The position numbers and the translations under genes were made by a program. Positions 9,488 to 29,596 of a stretch of DNA of 48,182 nucleotides are shown here, in pieces. The first letter of the stretch is position 1. Every line of letters starts with the position of its first letter. The notes below the pieces were generated by a model, which was given only the letters and a program-made list of their open reading frames with translations, was not told the origin of the DNA and searched no databases. This DNA is from Cryobacterium sp. (GTDB lineage: Bacteria; Actinomycetota; Actinomycetes; Actinomycetales; Microbacteriaceae), in NCBI GenBank assembly GCA_019638935.1, contig JAHBSW010000016.1:1-48182 (forward strand), in the 5' to 3' direction.

Positions 9488-10324
9488 GTGAGCATCCGGG
9501 TCAACGTGCGGCGATATCGAGAGCTGTTCGTCAATCTCACGCAGCGAGAGCTCAAGGGCAAGTACAAGCGCACGATCCTCGGGCAGCTGTGGTCCCTGGC
9601 CAACCCTTTGGCATTGATGGTGGTGTATTCATTCGTCTTCACCTTCATCATCCGCATGACGCCCGAACCCGGTGACCCGAGCGGGCTCGATGTGTTCCCC
9701 CTGTGGCTGCTGTGCGGGCTGCTGCCGTGGATCTTCTTCTCGAACGTGGTCAATCAGGGGATGGGCACGCTCCTCGCGAACGAGTCTCTGATCAAGAAGG
9801 TCTACTTTCCGAGAAGCGTTCTCGTTCTCTCCTCCAGTGCGGCGATCGCGGTGAACTGGTTGGTCGAGATGTCGGTGCTTGTGGTCGCGCTCGCACTGTT
9901 CGGAGCCTGGACTGTGTTCCTCTGGTTGCCAATGCTCGTGGTGTTCATGGCTCTTCTCGCTGTCTTCGCCACCGGCATCGCCCTGGCCCTCTCGATCGCC
10001 AACGTTTACTTCCGCGACACTCAGTACTTTGTGACGATCGCCCTGCAGCTCGGAATGTACATGGCCCCGATCATCTATCCGGTCAGCCTTGTCAAGGTTC
10101 AGTCGGATCGTATCGGCCCGTTGTTCGCGAACGTGACGTTGCTGGACATCTATCGACTCAACCCCATGGAGCGGTTCATCGCGGTCTTCCGTAGGCTTCT
10201 TTATGACAATGACTGGCCGGCATTCGATGACGTGATCGCCTGCGTGCTGTGGGCCGCAGTCGCGATCACTCTGGGGATGCTGGTGTTCTCGCGGAACCAG
10301 AAGAAGCTGGCGGAGATACTGTGA
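9488..10324 (+). CDS. ABC-2 type polysaccharide export permease (Wzm/TagG-like)
   Basis: The 278-aa membrane protein has about six helices and the ABC-2 polysaccharide-export pattern. A short basic N-terminus with LTQRELKGKYKRTILGQLW comes first, then PLWLLCGLLPWIFFSN, NESLIKKVYFPRSVL, and the terminal RLNPMERFIAVFR region. With the ATPase at 10321 it would carry a lipid-linked glycan, or wall teichoic-acid-like polymer, across the membrane. The GTG start is 2 bp after rfbA, and the stop overlaps the ATPase start (GTGA). A Wzx-type flippase and a Wzy-type polymerase also lie in the window, so two export routes may coexist. Confidence 0.93.
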   Translation: MSIRVNVRRYRELFVNLTQRELKGKYKRTILGQLWSLANPLALMVVYSFVFTFIIRMTPEPGDPSGLDVFPLWLLCGLLPWIFFSNVVNQGMGTLLANESLIKKVYFPRSVLVLSSSAAIAVNWLVEMSVLVVALALFGAWTVFLWLPMLVVFMALLAVFATGIALALSIANVYFRDTQYFVTIALQLGMYMAPIIYPVSLVKVQSDRIGPLFANVTLLDIYRLNPMERFIAVFRRLLYDNDWPAFDDVIACVLWAAVAITLGMLVFSRNQKKLAEIL

Positions 10325-11055
10325 GCGACATCGCCATTCGTGTCGACCACGTGTCGAAGAAGTTCCGGCTCTACAAGGAGCGCAATCAGTCGCTCAAGTC
10401 CGCGATCATGCGAGGGCGAACCTCTGTGCACGAGGACTTCTGGGCACTGAAGGATGTCAGTCTTGATGTGGTGCGCGGGCAGACTGTCGGCCTCGTGGGC
10501 GACAACGGCTCCGGCAAGTCAACCCTGCTGAAGTGCATGGCGAAGATCCTCTATCCCGACAAGGGGTCGATCACGATGAAGGGGCGCCTTGCCGCTCTTC
10601 TTGAGGTGGGTTCGGGCTTCCATCCCGAACTCTCGGGTCGCGACAATGTGTACCTCAATGGATCGATCCTGGGCATGTCGCGTAGAGAGATCGAGATGAA
10701 GTTCGATGAAATAGTCGACTTCTCAGGTGTGCGGGAGTTCATCGATCAACCGGTGAAGAATTACTCATCCGGTATGTATGTTCGTCTCGGTTTCTCGGTT
10801 GCGATCCACGTCGATCCCGACATTCTGCTCGTTGACGAAGTGCTCGCGGTGGGTGACGAGAGCTTCCAGGCGAAGTGCGCGGAGAAGTTCGTCGAGTTGC
10901 GGAAAGCCGGCCGCACGATCGTCATCGTCAGTCACGCCCTGGGCACGCTCGCATCGATGTGCGACAGTCTCGTCTGGCTGCAGCACGGCGACGTGATGGC
11001 GACGGGTGACCCGGCGACGGTCATAGCAGCCTATCGAGGCCACGACGGTCCGTAG
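10321..11055 (+). CDS. ABC transporter ATPase for polysaccharide export (Wzt/TagH-like)
   Basis: The 244-aa ATPase contains Walker A GDNGSGKST (60-68), the signature NYSSGMYVRL, and Walker B ILLVDEVLAVGDE. The N-terminal VSKKFRLYKERNQSLK is typical of glycan-exporting ATPases of the Wzt/TagH group. It stops soon after the nucleotide-binding domain, so it lacks the C-terminal carbohydrate-binding domain that lets some Wzt proteins recognise a capped O-antigen. It should therefore work without chain-end recognition. The GTG at 10321 overlaps the permease stop. Confidence 0.94.
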   Translation: MSDIAIRVDHVSKKFRLYKERNQSLKSAIMRGRTSVHEDFWALKDVSLDVVRGQTVGLVGDNGSGKSTLLKCMAKILYPDKGSITMKGRLAALLEVGSGFHPELSGRDNVYLNGSILGMSRREIEMKFDEIVDFSGVREFIDQPVKNYSSGMYVRLGFSVAIHVDPDILLVDEVLAVGDESFQAKCAEKFVELRKAGRTIVIVSHALGTLASMCDSLVWLQHGDVMATGDPATVIAAYRGHDGP

Positions 11056-14187: not shown

Positions 14188-15230
14188 CGGTTGGCGACCA
14201 TGTTCTTCGCCAACTGGGAAGCGGATCGGAGCGCGCGCTCCACATCGCCGCTGCCCTCGTGGTCGACTGCCTGCGAAAGGACTTCCAAGAGCTGCGGGGT
14301 CACCGAGAGTGCCGCGAGCGACTCCCACGAGCCACTCTCTTGGACGAGTCGGAAGAGCAAGTTGAGACCTCGCCGCTGGACAACCCTGTTCTCGTGGGTG
14401 AGGAGCAGCAACGCGCGGGACGCGAGACGCGACGCTGTGTCTTTTGCGAATACGTCCAGTCCCACCGCCGCACTGAGCCGATTGAGAACGTCGTCGGGAG
14501 CTTGCTCGATGAACGACGTAATCAGGTATTCAAGTTCCGCAGCGTGTCGCCGTCTACGCGGCGAGTCCACCCCTACATAGCTCCGGGAGGTGTTGGTGCC
14601 GTGTTTGCGGTACTCGGCGAAAGGCTGCGTCGACATCGCCAATCGGCCGACGGAGAGTGCTCTGAGCCAGAGTGCATGGTCCTGCAGGAGATCGATTCCC
14701 ACCGGGTAGCCTCCCAGATCCAGATAGTCTGCCCGCCGCATTGCTGCGGTGGGGGCGCAGATGAAGTTGCCGTCGAACACCAGACGACGGAGAGGATCTT
14801 CACTCGGCGCCGGCGTTGCGAATTCCTCCGCGACCGTGCCGGTCAGAGCGAGACCTCGGGAGTCGATGATGGATGGCATGCTGGCAGAGACCATGACCTC
14901 GCGGTCGAGAAGGTCGGCGATGTGCCGCTCGACTCTGCCTGGCAAGCTGCGGTCGTCTCCTCCTTGAAAGACGATTATCTCGGCATCAGTGGACTCGATC
15001 GCCAGATTGCACGCTCGAGATACCCCGCTGCGCTGCGTCATCGGCAGAACGCGAACGTTGCTGATGCCAAGCGATCGAACGCGCTCGACCGAGTCGTCCT
15101 CTGAACAGTCATCGACAACGACGAGTTCGTCGACCTGTGGAGCAAGGCTCAAGACCGACTCTTCGATGTATGCGGACTGATTGAATGAGGCGACGATCCC
15201 CGAGCTTCGCACTCGATTCCTACCCGTCAT
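14184..15230 (-). CDS. GT2-family glycosyltransferase
   Basis: The 348-aa GT-A transferase has GIVASFNQSAYIEESVLSL, VVVDDCSEDDSVERV, and FQGGDDRSLPGRV as the metal-binding region. A middle block, GIDLLQDHALWLRAL, resembles the acceptor-side segment of other GT2s, and a helical C-terminal part of about 110 residues follows. The ATG at 15230 overlaps the upstream stop (ATGA) and is preferred to an in-frame GTG at 15242. Sugar specificity is unknown. Confidence 0.88.
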   Translation of the reverse strand: MTGRNRVRSSGIVASFNQSAYIEESVLSLAPQVDELVVVDDCSEDDSVERVRSLGISNVRVLPMTQRSGVSRACNLAIESTDAEIIVFQGGDDRSLPGRVERHIADLLDREVMVSASMPSIIDSRGLALTGTVAEEFATPAPSEDPLRRLVFDGNFICAPTAAMRRADYLDLGGYPVGIDLLQDHALWLRALSVGRLAMSTQPFAEYRKHGTNTSRSYVGVDSPRRRRHAAELEYLITSFIEQAPDDVLNRLSAAVGLDVFAKDTASRLASRALLLLTHENRVVQRRGLNLLFRLVQESGSWESLAALSVTPQLLEVLSQAVDHEGSGDVERALRSASQLAKNMVANR

Positions 15231-16785: not shown

Positions 16786-17019
16786 ATGGACGAAGAATCG
16801 TTGCTCCGCATGGTCGAGGCGATCGCTGAGGTCGCGCCCGGTACGGTGACGCTCGAAACAGAGCTCGATGCCCTGAACTGGGACTCGCTCGCTAATCTTG
16901 GTTTCATCTCCGAAGTGGACAGCGCTCTGGATGTGACGGTGTCGGCGGAGCAGCTCAGCAAGGCGGCGACAGTCGCGGACCTCGGCGCTGTAGTGCGAGA
17001 TGCCACGAACGGGAAGTAA
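16786..17019 (+). CDS. Acyl carrier protein (dedicated)
   Basis: A 77-aa four-helix carrier protein. Serine 34 in NWDSLANL is the expected phosphopantetheine site (DSL motif). It differs from a housekeeping AcpP, and it lies in a glycan locus directly before an SDR and a KAS III. A dedicated role in building a short acyl group for a sugar is therefore likely. Its last 20 bases overlap the start of the reductase gene, which suggests tight coupling. A carrier for an aminoacyl or hydroxyacyl unit is the alternative. Confidence 0.85.
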   Translation: MDEESLLRMVEAIAEVAPGTVTLETELDALNWDSLANLGFISEVDSALDVTVSAEQLSKAATVADLGAVVRDATNGK

Positions 17020-17779
17020 TCCGCAGGATTTCCTTCAGCTCGGAGGCAGAAGGCTCCTCATTACGGGCGCCAGTTCCGGGATCGGGCGTTCCGTTGCGGT
17101 GCTGGCGGCGCGTCACGGAGCGCGTGTCGCGCTCGTCGCTCGTCGCGGCGACGAGCTCGACCTAGTGCTCTCTGAGTTGCACGGCGAGGGACATCTAGCT
17201 GTTCCGTTCGATGTGACCGAGTTCGATGCCATCCCCGACATGATTGATGAAGTCGTCAGCGAGGTCGGGTTGCTCGATGGACTCGTGCACGCTGCGGGGA
17301 TCCACCGGGCAGCGGCTCTTCGTCAGGCAACACCGCAGCATGTTGAGGAGTTGATCGGTGTCAACCTGACCGCCCCGCTCATGCTTACGCGGGCTTTTCG
17401 GCGCCCGCATGTGCGTGGAGCAGACCCCAGCGTGGTCTTCATCAGTTCCGCCGCCTCCATGGTTGGCGAACCGGGGGTCAGCGGCTATTCAGCGTCGAAG
17501 GGGGCGCTCAACTCTCTGTCGAGATCTCTCGCGGTCGAGCTTAATCGTGAGGGTATCCGTTGCAACACGATCGCGGCGGGGGTCGTTCAGACGCCATTGA
17601 CTCAGGGCCTCCGTGAAATGGTGGGGGAGGCAGCCTGGGGTGAAATCGCCTCAGCACACCCGCTGGGAATCGGTGAGGCTAGCGATGTCGCTCATGCGGT
17701 GCTGTTCTTGCTCTCTCCAGCTTCGCGGTGGATGCTCGGTGCGACCGTTGCCGTTGATGGCGGCTACACATCCCGATAA
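17000..17779 (+). CDS. FabG-like short-chain dehydrogenase/reductase
   Basis: The 259-aa classical SDR has TGASSGIG (about residues 23-30) for NAD(P) binding, HAAGI in the NNAG position, the catalytic Ser in FISSAASM and the YSASK motif. It ends WMLGATVAVDGGY, the usual FabG-type tail. Placed between the ACP and the KAS III genes, its likely job is to reduce the 3-oxoacyl-ACP product to 3-hydroxyacyl-ACP. The ATG at 17000 lies inside the ACP gene; no better start exists downstream. A sugar ketoreductase is a less likely alternative. Confidence 0.87.
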   Translation: MPRTGSNPQDFLQLGGRRLLITGASSGIGRSVAVLAARHGARVALVARRGDELDLVLSELHGEGHLAVPFDVTEFDAIPDMIDEVVSEVGLLDGLVHAAGIHRAAALRQATPQHVEELIGVNLTAPLMLTRAFRRPHVRGADPSVVFISSAASMVGEPGVSGYSASKGALNSLSRSLAVELNREGIRCNTIAAGVVQTPLTQGLREMVGEAAWGEIASAHPLGIGEASDVAHAVLFLLSPASRWMLGATVAVDGGYTSR

Positions 17780-17795
17780 GAAAGGTGGTGCGGCA

Positions 17796-18809
17796 GTGAT
17801 TTCTGCCTTTATCGCTGACGTTGCGTATTACCTTCCGTCAGGTTCCGTGACGAATGATGATCTCTCGCGAGCATTCCCGGAGTGGAGTGTCGACAAGATC
17901 AGCGCGAAAACCGGTATCGAGGTTCGGCACATCGCCGGACCGGACGAGTTCACCTCGGATCTGGCCACCGGTGCGGCGAGGGCGCTCGCCAGTGCGGGGC
18001 GCGTCGATCTCAACGAGGTCGACTACTTGATCGTCTGCACGCAGAGTCCCGATTACTTCTTGCCCACGACGGCCTGCATGGTGCACGAGAATCTTGGCCT
18101 TCGGTCTGATGCGGGAGCAATCGACATCAATCTCGGATGCTCAGGTTATGTCTACGGGATGGGGCTTGCCAAAGGTCTCATCGAGAGCGGGCAGGTTCGC
18201 AATGTGCTGCTCATCACCGCTGACACCTACAGCAAGTTTCTCAATCCGGAGGACAAGTCCGTACGAACCATCTTCGGTGATGCAGCTTCGGCAACGTTCG
18301 TCTCATCTCGTGAGAGTTCGGGTGCGGACATCTCCGCGCTGGTTTACGGGTCGGACGGAAGCGGTGCGAAACACCTCATGGTTCCCCGTGGCGGTCTTCG
18401 ACCCGGAGCGGATTTGACGCATGATGCCGAGCCAGAGGCGCGAGGGTTGCAGCCGTCTTCCTACGACCTCTATATGAACGGCCCCGAGATCTTCAATTTC
18501 ACCCTGAGGGTCGTGCCGGAGACCTTCGCGGCCGTTCTCGCGAAAGCCGAGATTTCGGAGGATGAGGTAGACCTCGTGGTCGTACACCAGGCCAATGCTT
18601 TCATGCTGGAGCATCTGCGGAAGAAGCTGGCCGTCCCCACTGAAAAGTTCTTCGTCCACATCGCGAACTGTGGGAACACCGTCTCGTCGACGATTCCCAT
18701 CGCTCTGGCCGAGGCGGCCGAATCGGGTGTGCTGCGCCGTGGAATGAATGTCCTCGTCATGGGCTTCGGGGTTGGTCTTTCCTGGGGTGGATTCATGCTT
18801 CGCTGGTAG
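17796..18809 (+). CDS. 3-oxoacyl-ACP synthase III (FabH-like)
   Basis: The 337-aa thiolase-fold enzyme keeps the full FabH triad: C115 in NLGCSGYVYG, H264 in VVVHQAN and N294 in NCGNTVSST. FabH condenses an acyl-CoA starter, often acetyl-CoA, with malonyl-ACP. With the adjacent ACP and reductase it could make acetoacetyl-ACP and then 3-hydroxybutyryl-ACP. The GTG at 17796 has AAAGGTGG at good spacing; an upstream ATG at 17613 would overlap the reductase and is rejected. Some FabH relatives transfer acyl groups to sugars instead, which is a second reading. Confidence 0.88.
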   Translation: MISAFIADVAYYLPSGSVTNDDLSRAFPEWSVDKISAKTGIEVRHIAGPDEFTSDLATGAARALASAGRVDLNEVDYLIVCTQSPDYFLPTTACMVHENLGLRSDAGAIDINLGCSGYVYGMGLAKGLIESGQVRNVLLITADTYSKFLNPEDKSVRTIFGDAASATFVSSRESSGADISALVYGSDGSGAKHLMVPRGGLRPGADLTHDAEPEARGLQPSSYDLYMNGPEIFNFTLRVVPETFAAVLAKAEISEDEVDLVVVHQANAFMLEHLRKKLAVPTEKFFVHIANCGNTVSSTIPIALAEAAESGVLRRGMNVLVMGFGVGLSWGGFMLRW

Positions 18810-18860: not shown

Positions 18861-19643
18861 ATGTCAGAGGCATCGGTTCACGAGACCGCAATCGTCTCCT
18901 CGGCGGCACGCATAGCACCGTCGGTCTCGATCGGCCCCTACACGATCGTCCATGACAACGTCGTCATCGGCGAGGGGACTGTCATCGGTGCGCACTGCGA
19001 GATCGGACACCGAGCCAGCGTGCGGTCCGCGATGCCCCTCACGATCGGCGCCGAGAGTCTGATCCGCAGTCACTCCGTGCTCTATGAAGGCTCGACTCTT
19101 GGAGATCGCCTGGTGACAGGACACCACGTGACGATTCGGGAAGGAACCGTCGCAGGGATCGGGTTGCAGGTTGGAACGTTGAGCGACATCCAGGGCGACT
19201 GCGTGATTGGCGACTACACCCGGATGCACAGCAACGTCCATGTGGGCCAGGGATCGACTATCGGCAGCTTCGTCTGGCTGTTCCCCTACGTCGTCCTCAC
19301 CAATGATCCGCACCCCCCTAGCGAGGTTCGTCTTGGCGTCACCGTGCACGACTATGCGGTCGTGGCGACGATGTCGGTGCTGCTCCCGGGTGTTCGGGTT
19401 GGGGAGGGCGCCCTCATCGGTGCACACTCGTCGGTTTCTCGGGATGTCGCGGCCGATTCTGTCGTGGTCGGCTCTCCCGCAAAGTTCGTTGGTGCGGCTT
19501 CTGACATCGCATATCGAGATGGTTCAGGGGCAAAGGCCTATCCCTGGCGCTATACCTTCCACCGTGGCTATGAAGAGTCGGACGTGCGTCGCTGGCTGGC
19601 GGAGGCTGAGCGACGCGCCGCGAGTTCGACTTCGGATACGTAG
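18861..19643 (+). CDS. Left-handed beta-helix acyltransferase (sugar N-acyltransferase-like)
   Basis: The 260-aa protein is built of hexapeptide repeats (for example IAPSVSIGPYTIVHDNVVIGEGTV) through about residues 15-215, then a C-terminal helical tail. The VVGSPAKFVG end of the helix is typical of O- and N-acyltransferases of dTDP-amino sugars such as FdtC, QdtC and WbbJ relatives. It lies after ACP, SDR and KAS III, and faces the aminotransferase that would make its acceptor. Transfer of the acyl group made by this set to a 3-amino sugar is the best inference; simple acetyl transfer from acetyl-CoA is possible. The ATG at 18861 has GAGGAAGGTGGG before it. Confidence 0.85.
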   Translation: MSEASVHETAIVSSAARIAPSVSIGPYTIVHDNVVIGEGTVIGAHCEIGHRASVRSAMPLTIGAESLIRSHSVLYEGSTLGDRLVTGHHVTIREGTVAGIGLQVGTLSDIQGDCVIGDYTRMHSNVHVGQGSTIGSFVWLFPYVVLTNDPHPPSEVRLGVTVHDYAVVATMSVLLPGVRVGEGALIGAHSSVSRDVAADSVVVGSPAKFVGAASDIAYRDGSGAKAYPWRYTFHRGYEESDVRRWLAEAERRAASSTSDT

Positions 19644-19661: not shown

Positions 19662-20801
19662 CTAGATCGCGAGGAGATCGCGCGGCACTTCGGAGAGAAT
19701 CGTTGTGACGTGCTCAACCTGCGCATCAGTCATCCACGGTCCCATTGGAAGGCTGACCACTTGCTCACTGAGGGTCTGTGAGACGGGAAAGTGTGCCTCG
19801 CGATCCTCAGGGCGAAGCGCATCTACGGCGGGTTGTACCGTCATGATCGAATACGGATAGTGCACGTCCGTTCCGACACCGCGGTCACGCAGGAAGTCCT
19901 GGAACTCTTCGCGACGTGTCGAGCGAACGACGAAGTGGTGCCAGACGCTCGACAAGCTATCGACCGGTCCGAGCACCGACGACGCAGAGGCATTCGAGAG
20001 CGCTCCTCGATAGGAGGTGGCAATCGCGCGCCGTCGATCGGTCCACTGTGGGAGCTTTTCCAGATGCAGCAAGAGAATGGCGGCTTGGATCGGATCCAGG
20101 CGAGAGTTCCATCCCGTGTCGACGTGATGGTACTTCGTCGTGCCCTGGCCGTATGAGCGTCGACTCCGCACTCGGGCAGCGATGTCCGGATCATTCGTCG
20201 CGACCGCACCTGCGTCTCCGAATGCTCCAAGATTCTTAGTGGGATAGAACGAGAAGGCGCTGGCATCGCCCACTGAACCGCTCATCCCGGCGGTGGATTG
20301 CGCACCGTGGCTCTGGGCAGCATCCTCAAACAGCAGGATGTCGTGCCTGTCGGCGATCCGGCGCAACGCCAGCAAGTCGGCGGCTTGCCCGTAGAGGTGA
20401 ACCGCGAGAATCGCCCGCGTGCGTTCCGTGATCGACTGTTCGACGAGATGCGGGTCGATGTTCGCGGTCGCGTGATCGACATCGACAGGGACCGGGCGTG
20501 CTCCTGTCTGCATGACCCCCAGCCAGGTGGCGTAATACGTGAATGCGGGAACGATTACCTCGTCACCGATGCCAATACGATTCGCCTCGAGAGCTAGACG
20601 GATGGCGTCCAAGCCATTGCCGACTCCTACCATCTCGTTGACGCCGATGAACTGTGCGAACTCGATCTCGAAGCGTTCGACGAGCTCGCCGCCGATGAAC
20701 TGACCGCTGGTGAGCACTTCGTCGATGCATGCGTGCACCTCCTCGGCCTCGTTTCGAGCGAGCGCGCCCAGGTCGAAAAACGGGACGATCATCTTCGTCA
20801 T
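19662..20801 (-). CDS. DegT/DnrJ/EryC1/StrS-family PLP sugar aminotransferase (FdtB/QdtB-like)
   Basis: This 379-aa enzyme places an amino group on a keto-sugar nucleotide using PLP. Visible are GVGNGLDAIRLAL, the PLP-pocket FEDAAQSHGA and FYPTKNLGAFGDAG, where the Lys forms the Schiff base. The sequence resembles FdtB/QdtB enzymes that act at C3 of dTDP-3-keto-6-deoxyhexose. Its ATG at 20801 overlaps the stop of the ketoisomerase gene (ATGA), the normal FdtA-FdtB pairing. It converges on the acyltransferase gene at 18861-19643. Confidence 0.92.
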   Translation of the reverse strand: MTKMIVPFFDLGALARNEAEEVHACIDEVLTSGQFIGGELVERFEIEFAQFIGVNEMVGVGNGLDAIRLALEANRIGIGDEVIVPAFTYYATWLGVMQTGARPVPVDVDHATANIDPHLVEQSITERTRAILAVHLYGQAADLLALRRIADRHDILLFEDAAQSHGAQSTAGMSGSVGDASAFSFYPTKNLGAFGDAGAVATNDPDIAARVRSRRSYGQGTTKYHHVDTGWNSRLDPIQAAILLLHLEKLPQWTDRRRAIATSYRGALSNASASSVLGPVDSLSSVWHHFVVRSTRREEFQDFLRDRGVGTDVHYPYSIMTVQPAVDALRPEDREAHFPVSQTLSEQVVSLPMGPWMTDAQVEHVTTILSEVPRDLLAI

Positions 20802-21211
20802 CGCTGTGCCGCCCATTCGCGGAACTCGTCGTAGTCACGGATGTAGTCCGAAGGGTCGTACTCGTGCGACGCCAGCACCAAGGCGGTGGACCCCGCAGAG
20901 AATCCTGTCAGCGTTCGCCAATACCCCGGTGGAACAGCGAGCGCACGGTCAGGCCGGTCAAGGAAATAGTCGATTGCAGCTCGACCGTCATCGAGTGTGA
21001 CATGAAAACTTCCCGAAACCGCGATGATAAGTTGATGCAGGTCTTTGTGCGCGTGTGAGCCTCGTGTCGCATGGGAGGGCACGTCGAAAAGGAAATAAAC
21101 TCGTCTGATATCGAAAGGAAACGGAGACTCGCCTTCGATGACACTCAGCGCGCCGAGCTCGTCGCGGTAGGCCGGCAGCTCAACGATCCCCGGCTTGCTC
21201 CAGATCTCCAT
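20798..21211 (-). CDS. dTDP-4-oxo-6-deoxyglucose 3,4-ketoisomerase (FdtA/QdtA-type cupin)
   Basis: The 137-aa single-domain cupin matches the FdtA/QdtA/WxcM C-terminal family in length and motifs: RVYFLFDVP, RGSHAHKDLHQLIIAVSG with the metal-free active-site histidines, and VPPGYWRTL. It moves the keto group of the RmlB product from C4 to C3 so that the aminotransferase can act. Whether it gives the gluco (Qui3N) or galacto (Fuc3N) isomer cannot be read from the sequence. The ATG at 21211 is chosen because it gives the family length and has TATTGT 7 nt upstream; the frame open to 21349 is not needed. Confidence 0.9.
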   Translation of the reverse strand: MEIWSKPGIVELPAYRDELGALSVIEGESPFPFDIRRVYFLFDVPSHATRGSHAHKDLHQLIIAVSGSFHVTLDDGRAAIDYFLDRPDRALAVPPGYWRTLTGFSAGSTALVLASHEYDPSDYIRDYDEFREWAAQR

Positions 21212-21524
21212 GAAAGCGACAATAGCAGCAGCGCATCGCCCGATTGCCTCTGGAAGGCCCACCGCCGGCTCGGCCGCGAGCTCAGGCTGTTTGGCCTGGT
21301 TCAAGTGCGCGATCAGACCTCGAAAATCGACTAATCGGTCATGGATCAAGGCGAGAGAAAGTCTTGATTCTTGCGCATGCTCGTGATAACGGGGTTCCGG
21401 ATCGTGGTGATGACGTCACTGGCTGTGAACCCACGAGGGACACGTGGGGCTACGTTTCGATGGTCGCGAGATAGACTGTGCGGGCCACTTCGGCGTTCGC
21501 CCGCCTGCAGTCAATAGGAGCTTG
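21212..21524. promoter_or_regulatory. 313-bp divergent control region between amino-sugar and phosphonate operons
   Basis: Minus strand: TATTGT (21224-21219) stands 7 nt before the ketoisomerase ATG. Plus strand: TAGACT (21472-21477) lies about 47 nt before the PEP mutase ATG, which has AGGAG at 5 nt. Between them are the perfect palindrome TGACGTCA (21411-21418) and CCACG-agggaca-CGTGG (21431-21447), either of which could be an operator. No gene was found here. It is the longest gene-free stretch in the window. Confidence 0.45.
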
Positions 21525-22835
21525 ATGTCCAATCGGAAAACCGTTTATGTGGCCATTTCCTCCGACATCCTCCACCGCGGACACCTGAATGTCCTGGAGC
21601 AGGCCGCAAGGCTTGGAGAGGTTACGGTTGGTCTGCTCACCGACAGCGCGATCGCTACCTACAAGCGCGCTCCGCTACTGGATTGGGAGACGCGCGAGGC
21701 GACGATCGCGAATATGCGACAGGTGAGTCGGGTCGTCCCACAAGACACGCTCTCCTATGCACAGAACATTCGAGATTTTCGGCCGGACTTCGTCGTCCAC
21801 GGCGACGACTGGCGTACGGGTATTCAGTCGGTCGTGCGCGCCGAAGTGCTCAACCTGCTGTCTGAGTATGGTGGCGAGCTCGTCGAGATACCTCACACGG
21901 TGGGCGTTTCAGGTACCGATCTCGAGGCCGCTTTTCGACCCACTGCCAGTACGACCGACTCGCGCAGAGCGCAGCTTCGCCGCCTGTTGAAGATGAAGCC
22001 GTGGCTGCGTGCCATTGAGGCATCCAACGGATTGTCGGCGCTCATCGTGGAGAACGTGAAAGTCGACGATCCGGAGAACGGAGCCGTTCGAGAGTACGAC
22101 GCCATGTGGGTCAGCAGCCTATGTGATTCGACATTCAAGGGTAAGCCCGACACAGAACTGGTCGACTTCACGAGCCGCTTGCGTACGATTCACGACATCA
22201 TGGAGGTCAGTACGAAGCCGATCATTCTTGATGGTGACACGGGCGGAAGAGCCGAGCATTTTCCTCACATGATCCGCACTCTCGAGCGTGTCGGTGTTTC
22301 GGCGGTAATCATTGAGGACAAGACCGGACTAAAACAGAACTCACTGTTTGGAACCGACGCGGTTCAGACTCTCGACGATCCCCGTGAGTTCGCCATCAAA
22401 CTCAACACTGGCAAGCGGGCGCAGGTCAGTGACGATTTCATGATCATCGCGCGACTCGAAAGCCTCATCGCGGGTCTGGGTGTGGATGACGCGATCATGC
22501 GCGCGAAGATCTACATCGAGCAGGGCGGCGCTGACGGCATCATGATCCACAGTCGGCATAAAGACGGCGAAGAGATTCGGGAGTTCATGCGCCGGTTCCG
22601 TGAATACACGACGGAGATCCCCGTCATTGTCGTTCCGACCACCTATAACCACATTCCGGAGTCGGAGCTCGCCGAAATGGGTGCCAGCATCGTCATCCAT
22701 GCGAACCATCTGCTTCGATCGGCGTACCCCGCGATGCTCGACACTGCGACCAGAATTCTCGAGAACGGGCGCAGCCTGGAGGTTGACGACGAACTCATGT
22801 CGATCAAGGACGTCTTGAAGCTGATTCCCGAATGA
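21525..22835 (+). CDS. pepM: Phosphoenolpyruvate mutase with N-terminal nucleotidyltransferase-like domain
   Basis: PEP mutase makes the C-P bond by turning PEP into phosphonopyruvate, the entry to nearly all biological phosphonates. The 436-aa protein has a C-terminal PEP mutase domain (about 155-436) with the diagnostic EDKTGLKQNS at 264-273 and LDGDTGG at 235-241. The first 135 residues form a TagD/GCT-like cytidylyltransferase fold: SSDILHRGHLNVL with HRGH at 17-20, then REATI and HGDDW. That domain may bind a nucleotide or make a CMP-activated intermediate; its activity is unproven. The ATG at 21525 follows AGGAG. The stop overlaps the next start (ATGA). Confidence 0.94.
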   Translation: MSNRKTVYVAISSDILHRGHLNVLEQAARLGEVTVGLLTDSAIATYKRAPLLDWETREATIANMRQVSRVVPQDTLSYAQNIRDFRPDFVVHGDDWRTGIQSVVRAEVLNLLSEYGGELVEIPHTVGVSGTDLEAAFRPTASTTDSRRAQLRRLLKMKPWLRAIEASNGLSALIVENVKVDDPENGAVREYDAMWVSSLCDSTFKGKPDTELVDFTSRLRTIHDIMEVSTKPIILDGDTGGRAEHFPHMIRTLERVGVSAVIIEDKTGLKQNSLFGTDAVQTLDDPREFAIKLNTGKRAQVSDDFMIIARLESLIAGLGVDDAIMRAKIYIEQGGADGIMIHSRHKDGEEIREFMRRFREYTTEIPVIVVPTTYNHIPESELAEMGASIVIHANHLLRSAYPAMLDTATRILENGRSLEVDDELMSIKDVLKLIPE

Positions 22836-23965
22836 GCACCCTGGTTGAGCCGGGAGAGTTCTATGAGCTTCTCGGTGAGAACGACATCGATGTATTCGCG
22901 GGAGTTCCAGACTCCTTGTTGCAGGATTTCGCGGCATACGTTGAATCGGCCGCGTCGGCCGACAGGCACATCATCACCGCAAATGAAGGAAACGCTGTCG
23001 CTCTGGCGGGCGGTTATCACATCGCTACGGGCAAGTTCGCCGCCGTCTATCTGCAGAACTCTGGGCTGGGCAACACGGTGAATCCGCTTCTGTCGCTCGC
23101 GGACGAGGCGGTCTACGGCCTCCCCATGCTCTTGATCATCGGGTGGCGCGGCGAGCCGGGAACGGAGGACGAGCCGCAGCATGTGACCCAGGGGAGGCTC
23201 AACAACCCGTTGCTGGAGCTGATGGGCATCGAGTACGCGGTGCTCGATCCTGGTTCGTGGCGCGAGCAAGTCGACTGGGCCGTCGCCCAGCTGCGCGAGC
23301 TCAGTAAGCCTGTCGCTATCGTCGTGCGCAAGGGCGTGTTCGGAAAGTTCGCATCGGCCGAGCGTTCCACCACGCTGACGCTCAAGCGAGAGGACGCCCT
23401 CGAGGCAATCATTGACGCGATCGATCCCTCGGACTTCATCGTGTCAACAACAGGAAAGACGTCGCGCGAGGTGTTCGAGATTCGCGAACGTCGGGGCGAA
23501 GGTCACTCTCAAGACTTCCTCACAGTCGGCGGCATGGGTCATGCGTCATCGATCGCTCTCGGAATGTGCCTGGGTACGGATCGCCGCGTCTACTGCATCG
23601 ACGGCGACGGGGCGTTTCTCATGCATTTGGGCGCGGCCGTCGTCGCGGCTCAGCAGCATCGTGAGAACTTCCGCTACGTTCTTGTCAACAATGGTGCCCA
23701 TGAGTCGGTGGGCGGTCAACCGACCGTCGCGTTCGGCATCGACATCCCGGCTATCCTCATAGCCGCTGGTTTTAGTGGCGTCGAAACTGTGCGCGAGCCC
23801 GCGGATCTTCCAGCCGCGGTACGCCGTCTTGCAGACAGCTCGGGAACGGCGTTGGTCGTCGAGGTAGCGCAGGGTTCACGTGCCGATCTGGGTCGTCCGA
23901 CAAGATCACCGGCGGAGAACAAGTTCGACATGATGCGAGAATTTCAGGGGGGAGCTCCCCAATGA
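22832..23965 (+). CDS. ppd: Phosphonopyruvate decarboxylase
   Basis: This 377-aa thiamine-diphosphate enzyme pulls the unfavourable PEP mutase reaction forward by decarboxylating phosphonopyruvate to phosphonoacetaldehyde. It shows GVPDSLLQDF, the catalytic-Glu region TANEGNAVALAGGY, LQNSGLGN, and the TPP/Mg motif GDGAFLMHLG...VNNGAHES in the C-terminal half. It is full length in one chain. Its ATG overlaps the pepM stop and its own stop overlaps the next ATG, so three phosphonate genes are translationally coupled. Confidence 0.95.
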   Translation: MSTLVEPGEFYELLGENDIDVFAGVPDSLLQDFAAYVESAASADRHIITANEGNAVALAGGYHIATGKFAAVYLQNSGLGNTVNPLLSLADEAVYGLPMLLIIGWRGEPGTEDEPQHVTQGRLNNPLLELMGIEYAVLDPGSWREQVDWAVAQLRELSKPVAIVVRKGVFGKFASAERSTTLTLKREDALEAIIDAIDPSDFIVSTTGKTSREVFEIRERRGEGHSQDFLTVGGMGHASSIALGMCLGTDRRVYCIDGDGAFLMHLGAAVVAAQQHRENFRYVLVNNGAHESVGGQPTVAFGIDIPAILIAAGFSGVETVREPADLPAAVRRLADSSGTALVVEVAQGSRADLGRPTRSPAENKFDMMREFQGGAPQ

Positions 23966-25815
23966 AAGCTCTCATCTTCAATTCTGGGTTGGGCAGACGG
24001 ATGGGCGAGTTCACCCGTTCGCGTCCGAAGTCTATGGCCCATCTCAGCAATGGCGAAACCATTTTCGGGCGCCAACTGCGCCTTCTCGCCTCCGCAGGGA
24101 TTTCGAAGTTCGTTGTCACTACCGGACTGTTTGCCGATCAGCTACGGGCCGAAACCGAGGTGCCGCATCTTGCGGGCCGGGAGTTCACCTTCGTCCCGAA
24201 TATCGAATTCGACTCGACAAACTATATCTACTCAATGTATTTGGCGCGGAAGCATCTCGACGGCGACGTGCTGATGCTGCATGGGGATCTCGTCTTCAAC
24301 CGTTTGATCCTCGAACGGCTCTTGGCCGATCCTCGCCCTGACCTGGCCATGGTGAACGAGACTCTTCCTCTGCCAGAAAAGGACTTCAAAGCGCGTGTCT
24401 CGGGCGGTCTTGTTCGCGAGGTGTCCGTGGACATCTTCGATGACGACTGCTACGCCTTCCAGCCGTTTTACAAACTCAGTGAGCGCGCACTCCAGGTCTG
24501 GATGAGCCGCGTCACCGACTTCGTCGATCGCGGGGAGAAGGCTGTCTATGCTGAGAACGCGCTCAATGAAGTTGCCGTGGATGCGGCCATCGCCACTCTG
24601 TCGTACGAGGGCCACTCCGTCGATGAGGTCGACACTCTCGACGACCTGACTCAGGTGTCGAACAAGGTGCGACTTTTCGATTTCGCGGAACAAGCGGTTC
24701 TCTCTGAAGCTGAGGACGTCACGCGCATTCCTGAGCTGCTGCAATCGGCCGGGGTCCATCGACCATTGCTTGTCGGCGGCAAGAGTTTCGACGCGTCGTT
24801 CGTGAAACCGTTGCTCGCCGACCGGGACGTGGATTTCGTGCGTTTCAGCGCGTACTCGGCCAATCCGAAACTGGACGAGGTCAAGGCGGGGGTGGAGGTC
24901 TTTCGCTCGGGCGGCTGTGACGCGATCGTGTCGGTCGGAGGCGGTAGTGCGATCGATGTCGCCAAGTGCATCCAGATTCTCGTTGCCTCCGACTCGGACG
25001 TCTTTCCCCCGTTTGGCGCATCGCTTTCGCGGCGCGTGCCTCATCTGTGCGTTCCGACGTCTGCGGGAACGGGGAGCGAGTCGACGCACTTCGCGGTTGT
25101 GTACATCGACGGGGACAAGCATTCGATCGCGCACGATGCGATGGTTCCCGATTGGGTGATCTTGGAGCCGCGACTGCTCAAGAGTCTCCCTGACTATCAC
25201 AAGAAGGCGAGTCTCCTGGACTCGCTTAGTCAGTGCGTCGAGTCGAGTTGGGCTGCGAGCGCCACGGACCAAAGCATCGAGTACGCGGTGCAGGGCATTC
25301 GACTCATCCTGGACAATGTTTTCGCCTACTTCCATGAGGATGACGCCGACGAGGATGCGGCGCGTCAGATTCTGACCGCGGCAAATCTCGGTGGTAAAGC
25401 CATCAATCTCACCAAGACGACCGCGCCTCACGCCATGAGCTACAAAATGACGGAACTCTACGACATCGCACACGGCCACGCTGTCGCTCTTTGTCTTGTC
25501 GGGGTGTGGTGGTATTTCGCGAAGCTTGCTGCCGACGCTACGCCCGAGGGACTCTCGGTGGCGCCGGCGCTTGACCGCCTCACGGAGGTGTTCGGGGCCG
25601 AGAACCACCGTGACGCAGTGAGCACGTTGGAGAATCTGCTCGAGGAGCTTCGGATGCCCGCACCACCCTTGGGCGATCCAGCGAACCTCGACGACCTGGT
25701 GAAGTCCGTGAATCAGGAACGCCTCGGCAACAGCCCCGTTGCTCTCACCGAGGCAGACATCCGCGCGCTGTACGAGTTCGTCTTCGCTCTTCGTTCAGTG
25801 CCGTTTTCTGATTGA
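23962..25815 (+). CDS. Fused nucleotidyltransferase / iron-type phosphonoacetaldehyde reductase
   Basis: The 617-aa protein joins two enzymes. Residues 1-235 are a GT-A-like NTP transferase with the G-x-G-x-R-M...PK pattern (SGLGRRMGEFTRSRPKSM) and LMLHGDLVF with the metal-binding Asp. Residues 240-617 are an iron-dependent alcohol dehydrogenase with SVGGGSAIDVAK (324-335), PTSAGTGSE (365-373) and DIAHGHAVAL. Next to PepM and Ppd, the reductase half should turn phosphonoacetaldehyde into 2-hydroxyethylphosphonate, and the first half could activate it with CTP. This mirrors PntC, where a cytidylyltransferase is fused to the 2-aminoethylphosphonate transaminase. One usual metal-ligand His is Gln here (Q424 after D420), as I recall for PhpC-type reductases. 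No transaminase gene for aminoethylphosphonate is seen. Confidence 0.9.
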   Translation: MKALIFNSGLGRRMGEFTRSRPKSMAHLSNGETIFGRQLRLLASAGISKFVVTTGLFADQLRAETEVPHLAGREFTFVPNIEFDSTNYIYSMYLARKHLDGDVLMLHGDLVFNRLILERLLADPRPDLAMVNETLPLPEKDFKARVSGGLVREVSVDIFDDDCYAFQPFYKLSERALQVWMSRVTDFVDRGEKAVYAENALNEVAVDAAIATLSYEGHSVDEVDTLDDLTQVSNKVRLFDFAEQAVLSEAEDVTRIPELLQSAGVHRPLLVGGKSFDASFVKPLLADRDVDFVRFSAYSANPKLDEVKAGVEVFRSGGCDAIVSVGGGSAIDVAKCIQILVASDSDVFPPFGASLSRRVPHLCVPTSAGTGSESTHFAVVYIDGDKHSIAHDAMVPDWVILEPRLLKSLPDYHKKASLLDSLSQCVESSWAASATDQSIEYAVQGIRLILDNVFAYFHEDDADEDAARQILTAANLGGKAINLTKTTAPHAMSYKMTELYDIAHGHAVALCLVGVWWYFAKLAADATPEGLSVAPALDRLTEVFGAENHRDAVSTLENLLEELRMPAPPLGDPANLDDLVKSVNQERLGNSPVALTEADIRALYEFVFALRSVPFSD

Positions 25816-25931: not shown

Positions 25932-28397
25932 ATGGAGATATCCAAGGACGTCGTCTCGATCGTCATTGTCAACTTTCGGGGAGCGGACGACACGCTAGAG
26001 GCGATACGCCGCCTCGGAGACCTCGATTGGCCAAGGGACAGGATCGAGATCGTTGTCGTCGAGAACGGCTCGGGTGATGACAGTGCCGCTCGAATCGCGG
26101 ACCTTGCTCCGCACGTCAACCTGGTCGTGTCCAAGGAGAACCTCGGCTTCGCGGGCGGGTGCAATCTCGGTGTGCGGCACTCGCGGGGCGAGTTCGTCGG
26201 TTTCTTGAACAATGATGCGAAGCCTGACGCGCAGTGGGTTTCGGCGGCAATGGAAGCCTTCGCCACAAGCCCAAGGGTGGGTGCAGTGGCGAGCCGGGTT
26301 CTCGATTGGGACGGTCGCCACGTCGACTACATCGGCAGCGCGATGACGTGGTTCGGCATGGGCTACAAGCCGTTCACGGGGGAGAAAGTGCCTCGCCACG
26401 CCGGCACAGATCGGGCCGACGTGCTTTTCGGCACAGGCTCTGCGATGTTCGTTCGGCGATCGGTCTTCGACAGCCTCGACGGCTTCGATGAACGCTACTT
26501 CATGTTCTTCGAAGACGTCGACTTCGGCTGGCGAATGGCGCTACGGGGATTGCGGTTCCTGTATGAACCTGCCTCCATCGCCTTCCACAAGCACCACGCC
26601 TCGATGACGAGCTTCGGTTCGCACAAAGAGGCATACCTCTTGGAACGAAATGCACTGTTCACGCTCTACAAGAATCTCGGCGACGAAGCGCTGAACCAGG
26701 CTCTGCCGGCGGCGATGGCCCTAGCGGCTCGACGCGGTATCACGATGGGTGGGCTCGATTCCGGTGAATTCGATCTGCGCCGTGGCGGCTCGGACGACAG
26801 TGAGATGCAGATACCCCGCATCTCCACCGTGCCTCTCTACGCACTCGATCAATTCGTCGAGGAGCTTCCCGCACTCAAGGCGGATCGGGACCGTATTCAG
26901 TCACAACGGGTCGTCAGCGACAGCACCGTGTGGAAGCTGTTCGGCCTGGCGGACGCCCCGGTCATCCAGGACGATGACTTCGTACGCGGCTACGAGAACA
27001 TCGTCACCGCGTTCGAGGTGACGGAGAGGCCACCGGCCACGCGCGTGTTGATCATCACGGGTGACCCGATCGGCCTCAAGCTTGCCGGCCCGGCGATTCG
27101 GGCGTGGAGCATGGCGGAAGCCCTGGCGCGAAGCCACGATGTGACGCTCGTGTCCCTCACGAGTGTGAGGCCTGTGGACGCCCCTTTCGCGGTCGTTCAC
27201 GTGCGGCCCGGCGACGAGCGCGCGATGGCGCCGTTAGAACGCTGGGCGGATGTCATCATCTTCCAAGGCCACGCGATGGCGGTTTTCGACACGATTCGGC
27301 GCAGCACGAAGATCATCGTCGCCGACGTCTACGACCCGATGCACCTCGAGCAACTGGAACAGGGCCGCGAGCTCGGTTCAGAGGTCTGGGCCAAGCAGGT
27401 GGCGGACGCTACCGTCGTCATCAATGAGCAGCTCGAACGAGGAGATTTCTTCCTCTGCGCATCGGAGCGGCAACGTCACCTCTATCTGGGGCAGCTCGCC
27501 GGACTGGGCCGGATAACGCCGGTGACCTATGACGGTGATCCCGATCTGAGGCGTCTCATCGATGTCGTTCCGTTCGGCTTTGCCACTGATCCACCACGTC
27601 ACGAGCGCGACGTTCTCAAGGGTGTGCTCCCCGGCATTGAGCCTGACCACAAGCTCCTCATCTGGAGCGGCGGTCTCTACAACTGGTTTGATCCGATCAC
27701 GCTGATCGAGGCCATGTCGCAACTGTCTCAACGAAGATCAGGTGTTCATCTGTACTTCCAGGGGACCAAGCATCCGCATCCCGGCGTGCCCGAAATGGAG
27801 ATAGTGACGCGCTCTCGAGAGACCGCTCGTCGCCTCGGGCTTTTGGACAGCGTGGTCCACTTCAATGACTCGTGGGTGGATTACGCCGATCGACAGAACT
27901 ATCTGACCGAGGCAGACGCGGGCGTCAGCACCCACTTCGCACACATCGAGACCACGTTCTCCTTCCGCACGCGAATTCTCGACTATCTCTGGGCGGGGCT
28001 TCCGATGGTCTTGACGAGGGGCGATCACTTCGCTGAGCTGGTCGAGACCGAGCGCCTCGGAGTGGTCGTTGACGCTACCGACGTCGACGAGCTCACCGAC
28101 GCGCTCGAAAAGATTCTCTTCGACCATGAGTTCATTGCTGAGGTGCGGGAAAACATTGCCCGTGTCCGCGAGCAATACCTGTGGGACCGAGTGCTTCAAC
28201 CTTTGGTCGACTTCGTCTCGTCGGCTTCCCCGGCCGCGGATCGCCTGGTACAGGAACAGAGTGGCGGAGCGGATCAGCGCAGGCAGCGCAAGAAGCGTTC
28301 CGGGTTCCGGCACGACCTGCAACTCGCCTACTATCACTTGAAGAACGGTGGTCCGCGCGTTGTGCTCGGGAAGGTACGTCGGCGTCTCAGCCGATGA
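25932..28397 (+). CDS. Two-domain glycosyltransferase (GT2 plus GT4-like)
   Basis: The 821-aa protein has an N-terminal GT2 domain (about 1-260). Its sequence includes VVSIVIVNFRGADD, KENLGFAGGCNLGV, FLNNDAKP as the metal motif, and FMFFEDVDFGWR, the rhamnosyl/galactofuranosyl-type catalytic block. The C-terminal half (about 370-770) is GT-B-like with DPIGLKLAGPAIRAW, LIWSGGLYNWFDP and TRILDYLWAGLPMVLTRGD. Such double transferases add two sugars in turn. The ATG has GGGGGAGAGGAC before it. Its stop overlaps the next gene start (ATGA). It probably adds sugars near the phosphonate-bearing residue, which is inferred from position only. Confidence 0.9.
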   Translation: MEISKDVVSIVIVNFRGADDTLEAIRRLGDLDWPRDRIEIVVVENGSGDDSAARIADLAPHVNLVVSKENLGFAGGCNLGVRHSRGEFVGFLNNDAKPDAQWVSAAMEAFATSPRVGAVASRVLDWDGRHVDYIGSAMTWFGMGYKPFTGEKVPRHAGTDRADVLFGTGSAMFVRRSVFDSLDGFDERYFMFFEDVDFGWRMALRGLRFLYEPASIAFHKHHASMTSFGSHKEAYLLERNALFTLYKNLGDEALNQALPAAMALAARRGITMGGLDSGEFDLRRGGSDDSEMQIPRISTVPLYALDQFVEELPALKADRDRIQSQRVVSDSTVWKLFGLADAPVIQDDDFVRGYENIVTAFEVTERPPATRVLIITGDPIGLKLAGPAIRAWSMAEALARSHDVTLVSLTSVRPVDAPFAVVHVRPGDERAMAPLERWADVIIFQGHAMAVFDTIRRSTKIIVADVYDPMHLEQLEQGRELGSEVWAKQVADATVVINEQLERGDFFLCASERQRHLYLGQLAGLGRITPVTYDGDPDLRRLIDVVPFGFATDPPRHERDVLKGVLPGIEPDHKLLIWSGGLYNWFDPITLIEAMSQLSQRRSGVHLYFQGTKHPHPGVPEMEIVTRSRETARRLGLLDSVVHFNDSWVDYADRQNYLTEADAGVSTHFAHIETTFSFRTRILDYLWAGLPMVLTRGDHFAELVETERLGVVVDATDVDELTDALEKILFDHEFIAEVRENIARVREQYLWDRVLQPLVDFVSSASPAADRLVQEQSGGADQRRQRKKRSGFRHDLQLAYYHLKNGGPRVVLGKVRRRLSR

Positions 28398-29596
28398 CTC
28401 GAGCGGATGTCCACAGTGGCGGAGCAGTCATGAACGTCGTTCTCGAGCGGAGTCGACGCGTGCTGGGAAGGGCTCGGCGCCTCGTAGGGCAGGCCCGAAG
28501 ACGGGTGAGGGCTCGGCGTGCTCGTTCTCGGCATCTCTCCGAGGTCGCTCGACGTATCCGGCTGCGGAGCGCAAGCGGCGAGCGCGTCCGCGTCGGTTTC
28601 TTCGTTCTGTACGACAGCGCCTTTCCCGCGCTCCCGCTTGCCCGGCTGCTTCAGGAGGATCCCCTGTTCGAGCCGGTGATCGTGCTCATTCCCGACGTTC
28701 TGCGTGGGCGTGACAACATGTTCGAGCAGCTGAACAAATCGAGAGAGTCTCTTCGACACCTCGGCATCCCCGTGGTCTCTGGGATAGATGAAGACTCGGG
28801 GTCGTTCAACGACGTCAGCGAAACCCTCGACTTCGTGTGCATTTCGAACCCCTATGACGAGATCACCCACGAATTCTTCACGATGACGTATCTCTTGGCC
28901 AAGAGCGTGCTGCCCTTCTACGTCTCCTACACGTTCGGAATCGTGAAGTTCGGGCGAAAAACGCTGTCCCGCGACCTATTCGCAGGATTTTGGCGAGTTT
29001 TCGCCGAGACGCCGGAAACCGCCCGCGAGTACCACAAGTTCTCTCCCGCGCCTCGGCAGGCGGTAGAGATTTCTGGTTACGTCAAAATGGACGAGCTGGC
29101 GTCGTTCGACCGAGCCGAGCAAGTTCGCCGCTCCGTCATCATCGCCCCGCACCACACGGTTCGGGCGTGGGAGGGCGGCTTGCAGGTATCGAGCTTCTTG
29201 AGCTACGCGGATGCGCTGCTGGACTTGCCGCGCCGCTATCCCGAGATCGATTTCATCTTCCGCCCGCATCCGCTCCTGTTCGTTCATCTCAAGGAAGCCG
29301 ATCTCTGGGGTCCGGTGAAGAGCGCGGAGTATCTCGCGGCGATGGATGCACACCCCAACGCTCGCGTGGACACCACTGGTCGCTACCTCGGAACCTTTGC
29401 CCAGAGCAGCGCACTCATCCACGACTCGGTTTCTTTTGCGGCAGAGTATCTCTATACGGGCAACCCCGCACTCTTCCTATCGACACCTGAGACTCACCCC
29501 GCTGAGCAGTTCAACGAACTCGGGGCGCTCGCCCGGAGCAGCACTACCACGCCGAGAGCGTCGATCAACTCCACGCCTTCGTGGAAGACGTCGTAG
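28394..29596 (+). CDS. CDP-glycerol glycerophosphotransferase-like protein (frameshifted near C-terminus)
   Basis: The product resembles the TagF/CDP-glycerol glycerophosphotransferase family. Typical blocks are APHHTVRAWEGG, FIFRPHPLLF, and IHDSVSFAAEYLYTGNPALF. These enzymes move a phospho-alcohol from a CDP-activated donor to a glycan chain at the inner membrane face. In this operon the donor could be CMP-2-hydroxyethylphosphonate. The basic N-terminus (rich in Arg to about residue 60) would sit on the membrane. Translation may start at 28394 (ATGA overlap) or at 28430, which has GGCGGAG upstream. From about 29534 the frame leaves the family sequence and stops early at 29594-29596. Confidence 0.8.
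   Translation: MTRADVHSGGAVMNVVLERSRRVLGRARRLVGQARRRVRARRARSRHLSEVARRIRLRSASGERVRVGFFVLYDSAFPALPLARLLQEDPLFEPVIVLIPDVLRGRDNMFEQLNKSRESLRHLGIPVVSGIDEDSGSFNDVSETLDFVCISNPYDEITHEFFTMTYLLAKSVLPFYVSYTFGIVKFGRKTLSRDLFAGFWRVFAETPETAREYHKFSPAPRQAVEISGYVKMDELASFDRAEQVRRSVIIAPHHTVRAWEGGLQVSSFLSYADALLDLPRRYPEIDFIFRPHPLLFVHLKEADLWGPVKSAEYLAAMDAHPNARVDTTGRYLGTFAQSSALIHDSVSFAAEYLYTGNPALFLSTPETHPAEQFNELGALARSSTTTPRASINSTPSWKTS

Follow-up and report, generated by a model that had tools for sequence, protein, structure and literature searches.

In 2019 the tailoring steps of surface phosphonate pathways could still be termed enigmatic, in a study that reported a PF01467 domain fused to 23.6% of 1485 predicted phosphoenolpyruvate (PEP) mutases, and PF01467 together with PF12804 fused to 2.9% (PMC6697681, Rice et al. 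2019). According to the same source, the cytidylyltransferase of Fom1 makes the cytidine monophosphate (CMP) derivative of 2-hydroxyethylphosphonate (HEP), CMP-HEP, and the two characterised PntC enzymes prefer 2-aminoethylphosphonate (AEP). Here we describe a phosphonate operon in a glycan locus of Cryobacterium sp. (draft genome, 94.86% complete; assembly GCA_019638935.1, contig JAHBSW010000016.1); the whole stretch analysed, positions 1 to 48,182, is called the window. The operon encodes a PEP mutase (PepM) with an N-terminal Fom1-type cytidylyltransferase (CyTase), a phosphonopyruvate decarboxylase (Ppd), and a polypeptide in which a LicC/PntC-like nucleotidyltransferase (NTase) is fused to an iron-type alcohol dehydrogenase (Fe-ADH or ADH), the presumed reductase. 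We propose that the locus probably makes a surface polysaccharide carrying HEP that is activated as CMP-HEP. The CyTase-PepM/Ppd/ADH core is of a known kind and HEP is an ordinary prediction for it, because CyTase-PepM with Ppd and Fe-ADH is common among the loci that we compared, and PEP mutases with an N-terminal PF01467 domain are common in PMC6697681. What is fresh here is the NTase-ADH fusion in an HEP glycan locus, the idea of a handover between the two nucleotidyltransferases, and the transferase candidates.

As originally predicted, pepM, ppd and the reductase gene are consecutive on the + strand, and both of their four-base overlaps read ATGA. The PEP mutase motif EDKTGLKQNS is present at PepM residues 264-273, and the protein scored 376.7 bits against TIGR02320 (cut-off 319.55). 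The identity of Ppd was likewise borne out (TIGR03297, 424.5 bits, cut-off 312.5), and the scores of the PepM, Ppd and reductase domains are far above chance. The expected lack of an AEP transaminase also held in the Cryobacterium genome, where none of four TIGR03301 matches exceeded the cut-off (best 43.3 versus 360.8 bits). Together with the glycan genes around pepM, this is the gene content expected of an HEP phosphonoglycan locus, and HEP is the best prediction of the product. A sugar transferase does lie directly downstream, as a glycosyltransferase gene followed by the gene starting at position 28433 on the same strand. PepM would convert PEP to phosphonopyruvate, which Ppd would decarboxylate; the resulting phosphonoacetaldehyde would be reduced to HEP by the C-terminal half of the reductase protein. 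Family membership and context make these three steps jointly very probable. The description of the reductase as iron-type was correct as to family (PF00465) and needs qualification as to metal binding. D420, Q424, H490 and H504 occupy the columns that we take to be the four metal-ligand positions of the family, so that Gln stands at one of them. Of the 97 rows with a letter at this second ligand position (102 aligned), 55 have Gln and 42 have His.

The reductase gene (23962-25815) encodes more than a dehydrogenase. The Fe-ADH match starts only at residue 246, and residues 3-123 match NTP_transf_3 (PF12804) at 37.1 bits (cut-off 27). In PepM, residues 14-107 match CTP_transf_like (PF01467) at 43.5 bits (cut-off 21), and the best solved relative of this domain is 5x3d_A (170 bits over PepM residues 4-137, 134 residues), which we take to be the CyTase domain of Fom1. 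The original prediction of HEP and a surface glycan fits the sequence evidence but overlooked these two nucleotidyltransferase domains, and hence the CMP-HEP donor. CMP-HEP is the expected donor because both domains are fused into the operon. Compared with the motif GXG(T/S)RX4-8PK, the NTase has GLGRR, 8 residues and PK, with Arg at the T/S position and the motif Arg and Lys retained as R13 and K23. Among 31 aligned rows, in which the window is counted twice, 30 have R13 and 29 have K23; of the two K23 exceptions, one row is truncated there and one has Ala. In our reading of the motif, R13 and K23 would be equivalent to the Arg and Lys of Tde-PntC, in which Ala at either position left less than 10% of the activity (PMC6697681). 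The NTase domain would convert HEP and cytidine triphosphate to CMP-HEP. On balance, we favor the view that the NTase makes CMP-HEP and that the ancestral CyTase of PepM has given up this role in part or altogether.

To place these features we scanned GTDB 220, at one genome per species, for CyTase-PepM loci; the query was built by aligning the window sequence with six relatives. At least 566 loci encode a relative of the query. The discovery set comprised 81 loci, the window and the best 80 of these at least 566, which come from bacteria and archaea and each matched over almost the entire query (loci are identified by L numbers). Ppd was found in 78 of these 80, and an Fe-ADH lay within 5 kb of CyTase-PepM in 72 of the 81. 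An NTase adjoining or fused to the operon is a minority state, seen in 19 of the 81. With so widespread a core, novelty was overrated in the original prediction; the NTase-ADH fusion is unusual. A second sample of 398 genomes, from the phylum of Clostridium algidicarnis, yielded 12 loci besides the known one.

A central feature of the proposal is the state of residue 130, the second Ser of the CyTase signature G[IV]SST. The window CyTase has Gly at this position (GVSGT) and retains HRGH, K47, R48, GDDW and S129. In a first comparison, in which the NTase set was assigned before residue 130 was inspected, Ser130 was present in all 85 rows without an NTase and in none of the 14 rows with one (window included). 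This comparison omitted duplicates of the window or of other loci (L118, L129, L136, L137, L139 and L141), placed L044, L097 and L111 in neither group, and counted L112 as NTase-free. L112 keeps Ser130 and has an NTase match on the opposite strand about 3 kb away; more distant NTases were found in L044 and L097 afterwards. For the subsequent counts an NTase was scored when a profile built from 14 of the discovery loci themselves gave at least 50 at no more than 1500 bases from CyTase-PepM, and the loci were divided by the presence of an ADH or an AEP transaminase. Within the discovery set, Ser130 was lost in 12 of 12 loci with both NTase and ADH (window included) and kept in 60 of 60 ADH loci without a near NTase. 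Loci with an NTase and an AEP transaminase were mixed (2 lost, 3 kept), both loci with an NTase and neither ADH nor transaminase had lost the residue, and among loci with none of the three genes one kept it (L062) and one had lost it (L111). In the second sample, which contains no Ser130 row and tests one direction only, the residue was lost in all five loci with NTase and ADH, in all six with NTase and transaminase, and in the one locus without an NTase (L163). All 19 virus-classified rows (14 at less than 95% mutual identity) and the actinobacterial G105 locus have an ADH, no near NTase and an intact Ser130. Pooling the ADH-type loci, Ser130 was kept in 80 of 80 without a near NTase (19 viral, some of them near-copies) and lost in 17 of 17 with one (window included). 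Varying the NTase rule over six settings left these ADH counts unchanged, with one exception: once the distance limit reaches 3 kb, L112 is added, and loss becomes 12 of 13 in the discovery set and 17 of 18 with the second sample. Stricter NTase scores shift transaminase loci to the NTase-free side.

Other CyTase residues were compared in the same way. K47 was kept in 16 of 30 NTase-positive rows versus 83 of 83 NTase-free rows, and D95 in 23 of 30 versus 83 of 83; HxGH was retained in all 113 CyTase rows. In the rows that lack Ser130, the position varies freely (V, I, Y, G, T and others). A tree was built from the mutase domain alone for 100 rows, including 6 of the 19 viral rows since many of these are near-copies. 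Among the 84 ADH rows, NTase state and Ser130 loss each required one change; over all 100 rows they required three and two changes, respectively, and a single clade for all Ser-less rows was not rejected (p-AU 0.743). A strong statistical association between Ser130 and the NTase was considered and rejected, as the tree shows about one event.

Several observations weigh against reading these data as a handover. The residues retained in the window mean that its CyTase may still work. Both the NTase rule and the division of loci by ADH or transaminase were adopted when the first pattern and the scores were already known. Three transaminase-type loci with an NTase (L054, L082 and L087) retain Ser130, and Ser130 is lost without a detected NTase in L111 and L163, both of which lie near contig ends. 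The pattern amounts to roughly one event followed by free variation and is not independent evidence, and the Fisher p value of 4.7e-13 ignores kinship and overstates the association. What the data do suggest is a loss of constraint on the CyTase signature in the branch that had an NTase at hand; the CyTase of the window is not proven dead. Our tentative proposal is that in one branch the NTase took over CMP-phosphonate synthesis, that the CyTase was kept with a decaying active site, perhaps in a nucleotide-sensing or structural role, and that the phosphonotransferases of the same branch are TagF-like and LicD-like. The words inactive, degenerate and vestigial are absent from PMC6697681; the handover idea was not sought more widely in the literature.

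The remaining steps would be carried out by proteins encoded downstream and elsewhere in the window. A TagF-like protein (the 28433 protein) would take the phosphonate of CMP-HEP and attach it to a hydroxyl group on a sugar of the repeat unit; the neighboring glycosyltransferases would assemble this unit, and the ABC-2 pair would export it. Stutzerimonas has a homologue of the 28433 protein (L061, near a CyTase-PepM operon), and others lie on plasmids of Vibrio alfacsensis and Rahnella, where they are annotated as belonging to the CDP-glycerol glycerophosphotransferase family (CDP, cytidine diphosphate). These homologues matched PF04464 (three rows of a four-row alignment, from which the badly aligned L116 was left out, at E 0.1 or better). 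The relatives nearest to the window place candidate transferases in one polypeptide with the NTase and ADH or beside them: Tessaracoccus caeni (L036) encodes an NTase-ADH-LicD fusion of 906 residues, UBA5396 (L035:2852-8401) has a single frame of 1849 amino acids with NTase, ADH, LicD, GT2 and PF04464 domains, and in L037 a PF04464 gene adjoins separate NTase and ADH genes. The 28433 protein is probably best regarded as TagF-like in action only, and it is the best transferase candidate; the chances that it is the phosphonate transferase from CMP-HEP to the glycan appear evenly balanced.

Some results count against this assignment. The 3′ end of the gene is frame-disrupted: the frame ends in unrelated residues, and the C-terminus resembling the homologues, as judged by eye, lies in another frame, through either a draft error or a real break. 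The window protein matched no Pfam family at E 0.1, PF04464 included, and a PF04464 search of the Cryobacterium genome gave no match. In favor of the proposal, LicD also had no match in this genome, and PF01467 was found there only in PepM and in one protein each on two further contigs (C17 and C30). In further searches, neither a profile of four homologues nor the single sequence found a relative in the PDB, the viral contigs scanned with the protein contained none, and no homologue was detected in the 21-kb locus of T. caeni HF-7 (tblastn, 1e-5). Among 396 genomes of the phylum there was one distant match (G185, 27%) besides the genome's own. The donor in L061 could be another one, for example CDP-glycerol, because this locus has an additional, separate PF01467 cytidylyltransferase. 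As a side observation, Vibrio alfacsensis plasmid pYa108 (L120:10592-16167) carries consecutive genes for a PEP-utilising enzyme, a glutamine amidotransferase, a PF12804 cytidylyltransferase and a 28433 homologue. Since Campylobacter Cj1415-1418 produce CDP-phosphoramidate 3′-phosphate (PMC11800397), this row is perhaps, by analogy, a phosphoramidate glycan pathway with a TagF-like transferase.

Four other explanations of the locus were weighed. The CyTase of PepM might still make CMP-HEP, with the reductase-fused NTase activating a sugar or alcohol phosphate for the glycan or being redundant. The precedent of Fom1 (PMC6697681) and the intact HRGH, K47, R48, GDDW and S129 speak for this, whereas the Gly at position 130, the fusion of the NTase to the HEP-forming domain itself, and the joint occurrence of NTase and Ser130 loss in the ADH-type loci argue the other way; we consider it unlikely, although a serious competitor. 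It is less likely still that the pathway is decayed or was never completed, such that the transferase is broken and any CMP-HEP is not attached. The frame disruption in the 28433 gene would fit such decay. It may equally stem from an error in the draft assembly, however; the three remaining phosphonate genes have open frames with tight overlaps, and unrelated transferases might serve.

The two remaining explanations concern the product. The fosfomycin pathway likewise begins with a CyTase-PepM, a Ppd and an Fe-ADH (Fom1, Fom2 and FomC), so that HEP could be the intermediate of a small-molecule phosphonate rather than glycan-bound. This seems improbable given that most matched window proteins belong to sugar, acyl-transfer or export families, and that no radical-SAM or oxygenase domain occurs among the 25 Pfam-matched of 30 scanned window proteins, the genome not having been searched for them. 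A dehydrogenase that reduces a non-phosphonate aldehyde, with a different phosphonate end product, is very improbable. The ADH reaches the cut-off of none of the 24 NCBIfam models that were listed with the reductase protein, which weighs against our assignment, and the phosphonate-linked Fe-ADH model TIGR03405 (PsrA) gave 130.9 bits against a cut-off of 423.7. For this reason the ADH substrate is argued from context: the reductase gene overlaps the phosphonate genes, and an Fe-ADH accompanies CyTase-PepM in most discovery loci. We retain the proposal of an HEP-bearing surface polysaccharide. In the window and its relatives, single polypeptides combine the reductase with the activating enzyme and with members of two candidate transferase families, so each missing step becomes one protein to assay, and the presence or absence of Ser130 provides a testable sequence rule predicting which of two cytidylyltransferases acts.

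The features of the window are collected in the table. A Pfam scan of 30 window proteins, a subset of its open reading frames, gave 25 proteins with and 5 without a match. Glycan-related families included LytR-CpsA-Psr, an ABC-2 exporter, GT2, GT1 and GT61 glycosyltransferases, a GDP-mannose dehydratase, a UDP-galactopyranose mutase and an O-antigen-ligase-like protein; the LytR-CpsA-Psr protein presumably has a role in glycan attachment. The acyl-amino-sugar module mentioned in the original prediction is a real gene set (acyl carrier protein, SDR, beta-ketoacyl-ACP synthase III, LpxA-like, DegT and FdtA proteins), but nothing links it chemically to the phosphonate. Four open reading frames on the - strand (13642-14328, 15227-16666, 31007-32239 and 41093-42994; 228-633 amino acids) had no Pfam match at E 1e-4.

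Features of the window, with positions on the contig, strand and supporting evidence
Feature	Position	Strand	Evidence or remark
LytR-CpsA-Psr family protein	829..2187	+	PF03816 80.7 bits
ABC-2 export pair: permease 9488-10324, ATPase 10324-11055	9488..11055	+	PF01061, PF00005
Acyl carrier protein	16786..17019	+	PF00550 28 bits, over cut-off
SDR, FabG-like	17000..17779	+	PF13561 180 bits
Beta-ketoacyl-ACP synthase III	17793..18809	+	NF006829 288.9 bits, over cut-off
LpxA-like hexapeptide acyltransferase	18861..19643	+	PF00132 89.3 bits; best NCBIfam is an LpxA model, 84.9 bits, below cut-off
DegT/DnrJ/EryC1 sugar transaminase	19662..20816	-	PF01041 347 bits
FdtA-like keto-sugar isomerase	20798..21349	-	PF05523 157 bits
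PepM: N-terminal CyTase (residues ~4-137) fused to PEP mutase (residues ~151-436)	21525..22835	+	TIGR02320, PF01467, 5x3d_A
CyTase residues 125-132, TVGVSGTD, altered signature	21897..21920	+	NTase-free loci mostly T-x-G-[IV]-S-S-T
Ppd, phosphonopyruvate decarboxylase	22832..23965	+	TIGR03297 424.5 bits
NTase domain, LicC/PntC-like (MobA-like NTP transferase), R13 and K23	23962..24660	+	PF12804; end at 24660 is a chosen boundary
Fe-ADH domain, presumed phosphonoacetaldehyde reductase, one polypeptide with NTase	24661..25815	+	PF00465 122 bits, PF25137 56 bits
Fused GT2-GT1 glycosyltransferase	25932..28397	+	PF00535 residues 9-180, PF13692 residues 575-729
Candidate phosphonotransferase, remote PF04464/TagF-like	28433..29596	+	Frame disrupted near 29.53 kb; expected C-terminus in another frame to 29716

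Among 60 genomes of the kinship search, own genome included, PepM exceeded the cut-off only in the own genome, with none in 7 genomes of the same genus or 29 of the same family. In 394 genomes of the class there was one other full-length relative (G105, 54%), and nine matched the mutase part only. The G+C content in 2-kb windows was 0.58-0.66 from about 8 to 35 kb, compared with 0.67-0.70 in the initial 7 kb and 0.63-0.68 past 35 kb, as would fit a glycan locus that has been exchanged. From these data we infer a local acquisition. The G105 locus (L034) itself encodes two identical 299-amino-acid products, transposase-like by eye (genes 8190-9089, -, and 15464-16363, +), and this pair of opposite orientation flanks CyTase-PepM, Ppd and ADH, as in a composite transposon.

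Predicted HEP cassettes were also observed on virus-classified contigs. The 19 virus-classified records (among L126-L144 and L029-L033) encode a CyTase-PepM with Ser130, a Ppd split into two small genes, and an Fe-ADH of about 250-290 amino acids. The parts of the cassette were confirmed by Pfam in two IMG/VR contigs of 106 and 96 kb (L144:4547-8947 and L134:5998-9921), in which the N-terminal half of Ppd matched only below the Pfam cut-off. These two were the only ones of 18 records searched to contain a large terminase, and portal and head protease genes adjoin it; in the other 16, which may be fragments or of non-viral origin, this terminase family was not detected. PF07068 was uninformative as a phage marker, as it matched nowhere, controls included. 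The presumed transferase upstream of CyTase-PepM differs among L029, L031 and L144, where LicD-like, PF04464-like and sulfatase-family genes were seen. In L030:3867-6272, an 801-amino-acid protein has CyTase-PepM as its C-terminal part; its N-terminal part looks similar, by eye, to the gene that precedes CyTase-PepM in L032. Full-length CyTase-PepM relatives (50-55%) occur in two 'Bacteriophage sp.' records from human faeces, both short (6.6 and 8.2 kb) and unannotated. In Vibrio phage Va2, a gene that bears the name phosphoenolpyruvate mutase matched weakly, over 35% of the query at 29%. Phage records with CyTase-PepM or PEP mutase matches were MT837901, MT836947 and MW073017. A likely fusion of PEP mutase and cytidylyltransferase has been reported from Borg elements (PMC12660748); no publication on phage-encoded HEP synthesis was recognised among the literature matches listed.

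Of the described systems, the fosfomycin enzymes Fom1, Fom2 and FomC of Streptomyces wedmorensis share with the window an N-terminal CyTase on the PEP mutase, a Ppd, an Fe-ADH giving HEP, and CMP-HEP; Fom2 and FomC perform the Ppd and the HEP-forming Fe-ADH steps of that pathway. The window differs in having a second nucleotidyltransferase fused to the ADH, Gly in place of one Ser of GISST, and a glycan-locus setting. PntC of Treponema denticola and Atopobium rimae resembles the window NTase in being a PF12804 nucleotidyltransferase that has both the Arg and the Lys of the motif and is encoded in a phosphonate operon; unlike PntC, the window NTase is fused to an alcohol dehydrogenase, and HEP is for this reason its likely substrate. 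The HEP phosphonoglycans of Glycomyces and Stackebrandtia, reportedly described by Yu et al. in 2014, have in common with the window an actinobacterial origin, HEP as the expected group and a glycan context. In the metagenome-assembled genome of Candidatus Stackebrandtia faecavium (L105), a PF04464 gene accompanies CyTase-PepM, Ppd and ADH; in contrast to the window, Ser130 is intact there and the 1500 bases on either side of PepM contain no NTase. The closest named isolate among the best 80 of at least 566 loci is T. caeni HF-7, with 69% identity in PepM. It differs from the window in carrying LicD as a third fused domain, and shares with it both the NTase-ADH fusion and the changed CyTase signature.

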